A DNA stretch of 26,614 nt, taken from a virus. Under the pieces are notes generated by a model. The model ran no database searches, was not told the DNA's origin, and saw only the letters and a list, made by a program, of their open reading frames with translations. Each line of letters opens with the position of its first letter. Position 1 is the first letter of the stretch. The stretch is from IMG/VR virus record IMGVR_UViG_3300023178_001795, positions 1 through 26,614 of that record; one strand, given 5' to 3'. The position numbers and the translations under genes were made by a program. Below, one piece after another: positions 5,584 through 15,660 of this stretch.

Positions 5584-6105
5584 TTATACATTTTTAGGAT
5601 TAGGGTAATATATTACACAGCCATTTTCTCCATCTTCGGAGACTTCAATTTCAACAAAGCGGCCGGGGTACTTTGCAGAAATCTTTTCATACAATTCGTC
5701 AGCGATCATCTCGCACGATTTGTAATCTAATAATAGCACTTCACTGTCGGTTGCGCTCGATTCTTTACTTCCTCCACTATCTGTTCCTGTAGAGTTTGAG
5801 TGTCCTGAGTAGAGTCTTTCGAGCCATCTTTTGAATTGGATGAATTCGATATCTCTATCGTTGTGTCGCACTTCAATCCGCACCCTGAAATGGAAAATAT
5901 GACGATGAGGATAGCCAAGAAACGATACATCATCCCAGTCGCCTGTTGCAAGTTTTGGATCATCTAGTGCCGCCGGATATTTGTGGATACCTTCTTTTTT
6001 AAATGTCACCCATATAGATCTATTTACCTTATTTTGCATGTAATTTACTTTGTCTTCTTCTCGCATCATACGCATCATACCTTCATAATAACGTTCTTGT
6101 GTCAT
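5584..6105 (-). CDS. 6-pyruvoyl-tetrahydropterin synthase-like protein (QueD-like)
   Basis: 173 residues. The T-fold zinc set is visible: His41 in FKKEGIHKYPAA, then His67 and His69 in YPHRHIFHFRVRIEV, like the HGH motif of QueD. DIEFIQFKRWL fits the family's DFG-LK helix, SCEMIADELYEKI the later helix, and EIEVSEDGENGC the C-terminal strand with Glu. The catalytic Cys four residues before HxH in E. coli QueD is absent (Leu63). Residues 100-121 are a Gly/Ser/Thr linker atypical of QueD. Start is uncertain: the promoter at 6109-6137 would begin transcripts after the first ATG, and GAAGG precedes internal Met codons 10-14. QueD makes carboxytetrahydropterin from the FolE product; the reaction here may differ. 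Confidence 0.55.
   Translation of the reverse strand: MTQERYYEGMMRMMREEDKVNYMQNKVNRSIWVTFKKEGIHKYPAALDDPKLATGDWDDVSFLGYPHRHIFHFRVRIEVRHNDRDIEFIQFKRWLERLYSGHSNSTGTDSGGSKESSATDSEVLLLDYKSCEMIADELYEKISAKYPGRFVEIEVSEDGENGCVIYYPNPKNV
5727..5933 (-). CDS. Candidate nested lipoprotein inside the PTPS-like gene
   Basis: A 68-residue frame on the same strand but in another frame than the PTPS-like gene. It begins MMYRFLAILIVIFSISGCGL: a hydrophobic stretch followed by lipobox I-S-G-C with Cys18. The mature part is polar (Ser/Asp/Thr-rich), then a short helix with QEQIVEEV. AGG lies 8 bases before the ATG. The polar part coincides with the low-complexity linker of the host gene. Embedded small lipoproteins are known among phage outer-membrane spanins (Rz1 type), though those sit within Rz. 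It may also be a chance by-product of beta-strand codons read out of frame. Confidence 0.3.
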   Translation of the reverse strand: MMYRFLAILIVIFSISGCGLKCDTTIEISNSSNSKDGSKDSTQDTQTLQEQIVEEVKNRAQPTVKCYY

Positions 6106-14833: not shown

Positions 14834-14924
14834 GTTTCTCCTTCGTTGCTTATGGCCAACTTAACCTTCTACATGCCCGACAATAGTTTTGGGCGTACTA
14901 ATACTTATTACAGGATTAATCCTG
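14834..14924 (-). promoter_or_regulatory. Leader of the polymerase gene with possible hairpins
   Basis: Short intergenic region plus the end of the upstream gene. Two structures are visible: the perfect palindrome CAGGATTAATCCTG (14911-14924, over the last codons of the upstream gene) and a GCCC/GGGC stem with a 12-base loop (14875-14894) extended by TAC/GTA across a 2-base bulge. No U-run follows, so a terminator is unlikely. T4 gp43 represses its own mRNA via a hairpin near the start codon; this hairpin is about 45 bases upstream, so analogy is weak. Confidence 0.25.
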
Positions 14925-15126
14925 CAATATAAATTATGGTTAGTCCTGCGTTGAGGACAACTAAACTTTTTTCTTTCCACAGTATACCTACTAACACCCA
15001 TATACTGTTAGCAATTATAAATGACCATATATAGTATGGATGAATATTAAAAGCAGCAAGAGTTGCGGCCAACAAAAGAATTGTTGTACCTAACCATGCA
15101 AGCCATTGATAGGGTTTTACCACCAT
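14908..15126 (-). CDS. Small three-helix membrane protein
   Basis: 72 residues from MVVKPYQWLAWLG. I chose the ATG at 15126 because GGAG lies 10 bases upstream and a longer frame would give an implausible Cys-rich leader. Three hydrophobic segments: TTILLLAATLAAF, YIWSFIIANSIWVLVGILW and LVVLNAGLTIIYIAGLIL. The Trp/Asn pattern recalls one half of small SWEET/PnuC-type transporters, but the similarity is only general. It overlaps the upstream membrane protein by 10 bases, so the two may act together. Confidence 0.65.
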   Translation of the reverse strand: MVVKPYQWLAWLGTTILLLAATLAAFNIHPYYIWSFIIANSIWVLVGILWKEKSLVVLNAGLTIIYIAGLIL

Positions 15127-15398
15127 TGAGCTGCAACTCCATATCCGAATACATTTATGCATGCAAAATAAAATGTTAGCAACATAACCCAAGCGGCTCC
15201 TCTTCGATAGGCTGCATAACATTGGGTAATACTACCTACAAAAAATCCAGGGTAAACAACTAGCATGTTTGGATCAAGTGCAGTTAAAGCAAGTGTCAAA
15301 CTTGCACCAACTGTAAAAATAAAACTTACTAGTTCAAATGAAAATGCAATTTTATCTGACGTATAGCTGTTCACCCAAAATTCTTTTATTTTTTTCAA
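15117..15398 (-). CDS. Small multi-pass membrane protein
   Basis: 93 residues from a TTG start at 15398. A longer frame exists, but it begins inside dsbA without a ribosome site, whereas AAGGA lies 8 bases before this TTG, directly after the dsbA stop. Hydrophobic segments: IAFSFELVSFIFTVGASLTLALTAL, VVYPGFFVGSITQCYAAY and AWVMLLTFYFACINVFGYGV. The positively charged N-terminus should stay in the cytoplasm. Function unknown; it is paired with another small membrane protein ahead of the DNA polymerase. Confidence 0.65.
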   Translation of the reverse strand: MKKIKEFWVNSYTSDKIAFSFELVSFIFTVGASLTLALTALDPNMLVVYPGFFVGSITQCYAAYRRGAAWVMLLTFYFACINVFGYGVAAQWW

Positions 15399-15399
15399 A

Positions 15400-15660
15400 C
15401 TATTTGTCCTTGCCAACTGTGACAACTAATGTTTCTAAGTCATCAAATTCTTCAGCAACTCTTGACCAATCACCTTTTTGGGCGATTTTAATAGCTTTGT
15501 TAATCATACTTGGTTTTATGTCAAGTTCTTCTGCAACTGCTTTCACTGTATCTTTAAGACCTGTTTGTAAATCTTCAACTTCTTGTAATACAGTGACGCC
15601 TTCATTTACAAGACGCTCTAGTTTGGCCTTTTCTTCAGGGCCGTATACACGGTCACTCAT
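15400..15660 (-). CDS. dsbA: DsbA-like double-stranded DNA-binding protein
   Basis: 86 residues, near T4 DsbA (89). It is helical and charged: EEKAKLERLVNEGVTVLQEVEDL, then GLKDTVKAVAEELDIKPSMINKAIKIAQKGDW, a likely DNA-binding helix-turn-helix. T4 DsbA binds duplex DNA near late promoters and supports late transcription. The order of segments fits what I recall for marine T4-like phages, but sequence similarity to T4 itself is low. AAGGAG lies 6 bases before ATG, and a perfect sigma-70 promoter is just upstream. Confidence 0.6.
   Translation of the reverse strand: MSDRVYGPEEKAKLERLVNEGVTVLQEVEDLQTGLKDTVKAVAEELDIKPSMINKAIKIAQKGDWSRVAEEFDDLETLVVTVGKDK

Follow-up and report, generated by a model that had tools for sequence, protein, structure and literature searches.

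A predicted lipoprotein gene lies within a queD-type gene

The window, i.e., the whole stretch of DNA analyzed here, is one IMG/VR virus record of 26,614 bases. It contains a gene for a protein of the QueD/6-pyruvoyl-tetrahydropterin-synthase fold, which we call the host gene (Table 1). The host protein matched phrog_17812 (E = 1e-32) and, weakly, the QueD-like phrog_2389 (E = 0.007). Its AF2 model had a pLDDT of 85, and the top PDB match was E. coli QueD (4ntk; probability 1.00, E = 7e-4, TM 0.70 by target). A gene for GTP cyclohydrolase I, which has a pathway in common with QueD, is located at the start of the window.

A second ORF is located in the +1 frame of the host gene. It runs on the minus strand from an ATG at 5933–5931 to a TAG stop at 5729–5727. 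Alternative starts are present at 5963 and 5930; the in-frame ATG at 5963 is 10 codons upstream and would extend the product to 78 residues. The initial annotation had noticed an alternate frame with a signal peptide, an ISGC lipobox, and a polar tail at the place of the host protein's low-complexity insert. All these features were present as described, and the C-terminal third of the hidden ORF overlapped the insert. The same annotation had listed a ribosome site. An AGGCGA motif was indeed found, but it is not independent evidence in the window's group, because the ATG and AGGCGA stem largely from the conserved host residues TGDWDDV; in this group, the ATG and Shine-Dalgarno motif did no better than codon resampling predicts.

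The ISGC box of the window fits the consensus [LVI][ASTVI][GAS]C, as quoted in PMC6139136. The [IT]SGC box was found in 42 of the 151 distinct genes of sets A and B (see below), of which the TSGC members depart from the quoted consensus at −3. The hidden protein of the window has no Pro-rich region. Its AF2 model was of low confidence (mean pLDDT 56.5). A Foldseek search of this model against viral models returned no significant match, and the best E value of a PDB sequence search was 0.13.

Table 1. Positions of the host gene, the hidden ORF, and their predicted features in the window.
Feature	Position	Strand	Basis
Host gene, QueD/6-pyruvoyl-tetrahydropterin-synthase-fold protein, 173 aa	5584..6105	-	ORF, PHROG, and AF2/PDB match
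Overprinted ORF in the +1 frame of the host, predicted 68-aa prolipoprotein	5727..5933	-	ORF list and constraint tests
Predicted lipoprotein signal peptide, residues 1–17 (MMYRFLAILIVIFSISG)	5883..5933	-	Signal-peptide-like n- and h-regions; AF2 helix 3–15
Lipobox ISGC; Cys18 (5880–5882) is the predicted lipidated residue	5880..5891	-	S16, G17, and C18 invariant in 26 aligned members
Cys22 (mature +5), predicted disulfide partner	5868..5870	-	Invariant in 26/26 of A1; co-occurs with the later Cys
Cys66, mature +49 of 51, within C-terminal motif KC[SYLF][FY]; predicted disulfide partner	5736..5738	-	Invariant in 26/26 of A1; parity tests
Predicted helix with EQIVEEVKNR, hidden residues 42–59; its DNA is that of the host insert	5757..5810	-	AF2 (low confidence) and substitution pattern
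Low-complexity insert, host residues ~100–121, low-confidence loop in the QueD model	5743..5808	-	AF2 pLDDT about 52 (blocks 101–120, 54 and 51)
Shine-Dalgarno-like AGGCGA upstream of ATG 5933	5939..5944	-	Mostly dictated by host residues TGD

The open frame and its lipobox exceed what host protein and codon usage predict

Relatives were collected by scanning with host-protein queries. Set A, found by the host protein only, contained 73 distinct genes among the matches listed, and set B, found with the host protein of L109 as query, contained 78. As L109 itself had first been found via the hidden frame, we added two scans with queries outside the hidden ORF, namely host residues 1–56 and host residues 126–173, the latter touching only the hidden stop codon. 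Among the matches listed, all host-only scans produced 327 loci, of which 107 were duplicates, 8 were unparsed, and 212 were distinct. L045, L108, and L114 were left out before counting, and 10 of the 80 loci from the residues 1–56 scan were unparsed. For resampling, synonymous codons were redrawn for each gene from the usage of its own contig; genes with fewer than 300 flanking codons were omitted from the codon-usage tests.

In 1000 synonymous resamplings of the window's host gene, the frame was open in 3.6%, and the lipobox was there in 0.3%. The frame was open in 29 of the 73 genes of set A and in 50 of the 78 genes of set B, whereas codon resampling predicted 4.9 and 10.9, respectively. 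[IT]SGC boxes were also in excess: 19 against an expected 0.05 in set A, and 23 against an expected 0.75 in set B. The residues 1–56 scan gave 58 distinct parsed genes, of which 14 carried the lipobox, and exactly those 14 were open. A comparison of homologs had been proposed in the initial annotation. Across the host-only scans, the lipobox was present in 57 of the 212 distinct relatives among the matches listed, and the frame was open in 57/57; the 155 listed genes without lipobox comprised 40 open and 115 closed ones. These results supported an overprinted lipoprotein gene, with a frame and lipobox beyond what the host protein and codon usage account for.

Cysteines of the hidden proteins almost always come in even numbers

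Cysteines besides the lipidated one were counted in 99 distinct mature hidden proteins, which came from all scans up to that point, among the matches listed. There were two in 82 proteins, none in 14, four in 2, and one in a single protein. Hence, an odd number was seen in 1 of 99. When N-terminal parts were permuted against C-terminal parts, 5000 shuffles gave 31.4 odd proteins on average and never fewer than 17. For the host-only set, the odd count was 0 of 57 (shuffled mean 9.1, minimum 4). Codon resampling of 46 lipobox genes predicted 18.1 odd cases, and none was seen. The Cys at +5 was missing in 20 proteins; the later Cys was also missing in 14 of them, and the other 6 had two Cys elsewhere. 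Among open frames without lipobox, 22 of 56 had odd numbers. This parity is the clearest of the signs of a hidden protein. The even counts point to a disulfide-bonded periplasmic protein, and constraint at the nucleic-acid level gives no reason for such parity. The Cys-parity test is also a simple means to recognize hidden secreted proteins in overlapping frames.

Synonymous sites of the host gene are constrained within the overlap

The initial annotation had also suggested examining synonymous sites of the host frame, and these were found to be constrained within the overlap. At shared amino acids, the observed/expected third-base divergence over the signal peptide and the tail was 0.60 and 0.64, respectively, in group A, and 0.61 and 0.52 in group B. 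Relatives without lipobox gave 0.92–1.06 at these sites. In the lipobox groups, the ratio fell to 0.00 and 0.13 at the box itself and was 0.76–0.87 up- and downstream of the hidden frame. Comparison among 16 close relatives of the window gave third-base differences of 0.189 in the shared core and of 0.47 and 0.40 in the flanks.

The codons retained were those that suit the hidden frame. Host codons over the signal peptide mostly end in T, which gives hydrophobic hidden residues, and those over the tail mostly end in C, which gives hidden Ser and Thr. Val codons 75, 79, and 123 of group A were GTG in 20/20 genes each, versus 0.11 predicted by usage, since each of them overlaps a Cys codon of the hidden frame. 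At Arg74 of group A, the third base was G in 20/20 and the first base varied (CGG 11, AGG 9); the first-base change is silent in both frames, and the base relevant to the hidden frame is fixed. Arg74 excepted, first-base variation at Leu/Arg was mixed, and the groups could not be told apart by position-1/position-3 ratios across the core.

Two readings without a second protein were weighed against these data. In one, which was our initial expectation, no second protein is made, and conserved host residues together with codon bias produce the open frame, lipobox, and hydrophobic run as by-products. The hydrophobic run does fall on a conserved host stretch, FLGYPHRHIFHF, with mostly pyrimidine-ending codons; the start ATG is supplied by host Asp-Asp/Asp-Val codons, and non-lipobox relatives also have a hydrophobic reading at the same place. 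None of this predicts the observed number of [IT]SGC boxes, the Cys parity, or a synonymous constraint that is present in the lipobox groups and absent from the pooled others. Codon resampling and Cys parity led us to rule chance and host by-product out, and we consider this reading very improbable. In the other reading, the constraint acts on the nucleic acid, as RNA structure, a regulatory site, or an antisense ORF. In each of the two lipobox groups, RNA folding was about 2 SD stronger than that of codon-resampled versions (z about −2), but it was about as strong in one non-lipobox group (z −1.9), and RNA structure was set aside as not specific to lipobox genes. The aligned antisense frame was open in 34 of 46 lipobox genes (17/20 and 17/26), and +2-frame identity was likewise raised. 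We read the open antisense frame as a side effect of TTA/CTA avoidance and not as proof of the +1 frame; of all the results, it is the one that fits least neatly. The sense-strand frames differed clearly, with +1 open in 46/46 lipobox genes and +2 in 3/46. Moreover, the pattern of T- and C-ending codons, the distant paired Cys codons, and the conservative replacements in the insert (see below) make sense only as features of a +1 protein. Constraint on the nucleic acid is therefore given a slimmer chance still.

Substitutions in the low-complexity insert follow the hidden frame

The initial annotation had explained the insert by two proteins sharing the DNA. The substitution pattern agrees with this. 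Within the insert, host codon position 3 was the least variable (0.20 in 7 sequences from the host-only scans, 0.18 in all 16), and position 1 was the most variable (0.41 in both). Read in the hidden frame, the differences at positions 1, 2, and 3 were 0.28, 0.22, and 0.42 (n = 7) and 0.28, 0.19, and 0.41 (n = 16). Insert identity was 0.60 and 0.62 in the hidden frame versus 0.49 and 0.48 in the host frame (n = 7 and n = 16, respectively), a lead that appears only with the last six host codons omitted, since pairwise identities including the conserved end were near-equal (host 0.583, hidden 0.592). The mean BLOSUM62 score of insert replacements was 0.66 and 0.80 in the hidden frame versus 0.16 and 0.18 in the host frame (n = 7 and n = 16).

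One qualification is that the insert is not required: relatives whose inserts have 4–10 residues also keep the lipoprotein, and in lipobox relatives without the insert, the tail is merely shorter. Close relatives that retain the insert but have stops or have lost the lipobox had been named as evidence against overprinting. None was seen, and the frame was open through the insert in all 17 distinct sequences (aligned, insert stretch at least 18 codons). As the insert substitutions follow the hidden frame, the odd QueD loop is best explained as the host-frame counterpart of a lipoprotein helix. It is a concrete example of an unusual insert that is accounted for by the demands of another protein, encoded in an overlapping frame.

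The lipobox trait is patchy among QueD relatives

On the host tree, the lipobox trait was patchy, requiring at least 25 changes, 7 of which were forced by well-supported branches. Hidden proteins of groups A and B aligned over 43 columns with 99.5% probability, a likeness partly imposed by the host frame. Scans with P0002 (28 loci) and A1 (80 listed) found, among the matches listed, copies inside QueD genes only, and tblastn of P0002 against 50,697 phage records found no homologue. The lipobox was present in 0 of the 7 isolate genes analyzed. In GTDB, it was found in 1 of 6 parsed loci, in a Neomarinimicrobiota bin; L268 (PBPT01000016.1) is a lipobox-type queD on a 335 kb contig of a Candidatus Neomarinimicrobiota genome bin. 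Many uncultured tailed phages seem to encode a small, putatively disulfide-bonded membrane lipoprotein inside a queD-type gene.

Two kinds of relatives without the lipobox had an open hidden frame. In 16 of them (L119, L121–L124, L127, L128, L132, L136, L142, L147, L154, L156, L158, L176, and L180), the lipobox Cys is lost and the frame is open, ending in two nearby cysteines, an R or N, and the stop. Their third-base divergence was 0.54 and 0.70 inside the hidden frame and 0.97 and 0.87 outside. These genes possibly encode a membrane-anchored sister form. Ten further genes (L016, L027, L028, L030, L032, L036, L039, L040, L041, and L055) have a TFVF-type sequence at the box position. Their third-base divergence was low from end to end of the gene, which probably reflects their close relationship.

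Predicted structure and possible function of the hidden protein

Taken together, sequence comparison showed that selection maintains the frame, the lipobox, and the paired cysteines. We assign a probability of about 0.86 to a genuine, selected, overprinted disulfide lipoprotein within a phage queD-type gene, a figure that does not include an exclusion function. We infer that the +1 frame is translated from the ATG at 5933 or 5930 into a small secreted lipoprotein, which would be lipidated, disulfide-bonded, and sorted to the outer membrane. It would consist of a signal peptide, the lipidated Cys18, and a Ser/Thr-rich linker, to which the window's group would add a helix from the DNA of the insert. 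One intramolecular disulfide, Cys22–Cys66, would tie both ends of the mature protein. By the sorting rule of E. coli, lipoproteins without Asp at +2 go to the outer membrane. Asp at +2 was found in 0 of the 99 hidden proteins among the matches listed, so that an outer-membrane location, facing the periplasm, is predicted.

A lipoprotein of this layout may serve superinfection exclusion. The nearest match in layout is T5 Llp: its termini are constrained by a Cys11–Cys58 disulfide, and from the periplasm it jams the receptor FhuA (PMC9586334). Rtp45 acts likewise at LptDE (PMC12685063). By analogy, the hidden protein would bind the phage's receptor on its periplasmic face and be made together with DNA-modification enzymes. 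Like T5 Llp and Cor, it is a small predicted prolipoprotein with a lipid anchor and two more cysteines near the mature ends, here at +5 and +49 of 51 and predicted to form a disulfide. Both the layout and the Cys parity would suit a disulfide that joins the ends, as in lipoproteins of the Llp/Cor kind. Llp ends in a short Cys...Phe tail, and so do most group A members. There are differences. The gene for Llp stands on its own next to oad, a receptor-binding gene, whereas the hidden gene is nested in queD, and the mature part of Llp has 61 residues, whereas that of most hidden proteins has ~31–51. Rtp45 of phage Rtp is similar in being a small periplasm-facing lipoprotein of about equal size with two extra cysteines; these are located at mature +11 and +19, so its ends are not tied. 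Homology was not detected for any of them: hhalign with Llp gave a probability of 2.5% over the signal peptide only, the best Cor PHROG had an E value of 0.044, and hhalign with Rtp45 covered the signal peptide only. A receptor-blocking exclusion lipoprotein is thus proposed tentatively, with the odds somewhat against it.

Two other roles of a real lipoprotein were considered. In the main alternative, it would act on the host envelope in a way other than receptor blocking, for example in LPS assembly, lipoprotein traffic, or lysis timing. Weak Pfam matches to LptM, a small lipoprotein that belongs to the LPS translocon, were obtained for 7 of 26 members, the best of them short of the cut-off (E = 0.036); the match of the window protein, however, spans only residues 6–21, i.e., the signal-peptide/lipobox region. 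The layout of linker and disulfide fits many small lipoproteins, and we regard such a role as a serious possibility short of even odds. The initial annotation had pointed to outer-membrane spanins of the Rz1 type. An o-spanin embedded in an unrelated gene would function in lysis together with an i-spanin from another locus, and a small lipobox protein with periplasmic cysteines would suit this part. T4 spanins sit among nucleotide-metabolism genes, and according to PMC6139136, spanin genes may be embedded in the +1 or −1 frame, and their products commonly have intermolecular disulfides. The hidden gene likewise lies wholly within another gene in the +1 frame. Yet its host gene is of the QueD fold and not an i-spanin, the window protein has none of the Pro-rich sequence of Rz1-type o-spanins, and the mature part goes down to ~31 residues in group B. 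PHROG spanin matches of the hidden protein had E values of 0.059 or weaker, and hhalign with T4 PseT.2 aligned only 19 signal-peptide columns (probability 6%). Furthermore, three carriers have a separate canonical pair in the order endolysin-like gene, i-spanin, o-spanin, with the o-spanin lipoboxes LSSC (L013), LSAC (L252), and LTGC (L264). They were the only ones of 12 lipobox records searched with a convincing pair, the other 9 giving no convincing match in records that may be incomplete; 5 of 9 records without lipobox matched both T4-type spanin families. The spanin reading was rejected on the nature of the host gene and the presence of separate pairs, and we hold it to be improbable.

The broadest form of the proposal is a family of envelope proteins hidden in queD genes of uncultured phages, in at least two forms, lipidated and membrane-anchored, which would jam the phage's own receptor from the periplasm, be co-expressed with protection against restriction and so join it to protection against rivals, and, in the window's group, force a loop into the enzyme. 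As a whole, this is rather unlikely. If the exclusion role is true, two survival functions of a phage would be united in one DNA stretch, and DNA modification against restriction and defence against rival phages would be expressed from identical bases.

Overprinted viral genes give rise to new alternative-frame proteins that are selected and partly disordered, and the hidden protein resembles them in being kept by selection and in part disordered. It differs in that the host gene encodes a DNA-modification enzyme and in that the younger frame appears to have shaped the insert of the older protein. To our knowledge, there is no other case of overprinting on a phage DNA-modification enzyme. In the open PMC literature, covered mostly below full-text level, we found no description of a lipoprotein overprinted on queD. 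Strong, frame-specific statistics indicate that, within the gene for a phage auxiliary-metabolism enzyme, there is another, unannotated one whose product would be secreted, and standard annotation is blind to such hidden genes.

Other overlapping ORFs were also observed. In the record of L252 (L281/L294), a second overlapping lipoprotein-like ORF (134 aa, LTGC) adjoins the spanin pair. In the window, ORFs 14908–15222 and 15117–15425 (104 and 102 aa) overlap in different frames, with ~106 bases in common. By eye, both contain many hydrophobic segments, and one has a weak GtrC-like match (E = 0.024).
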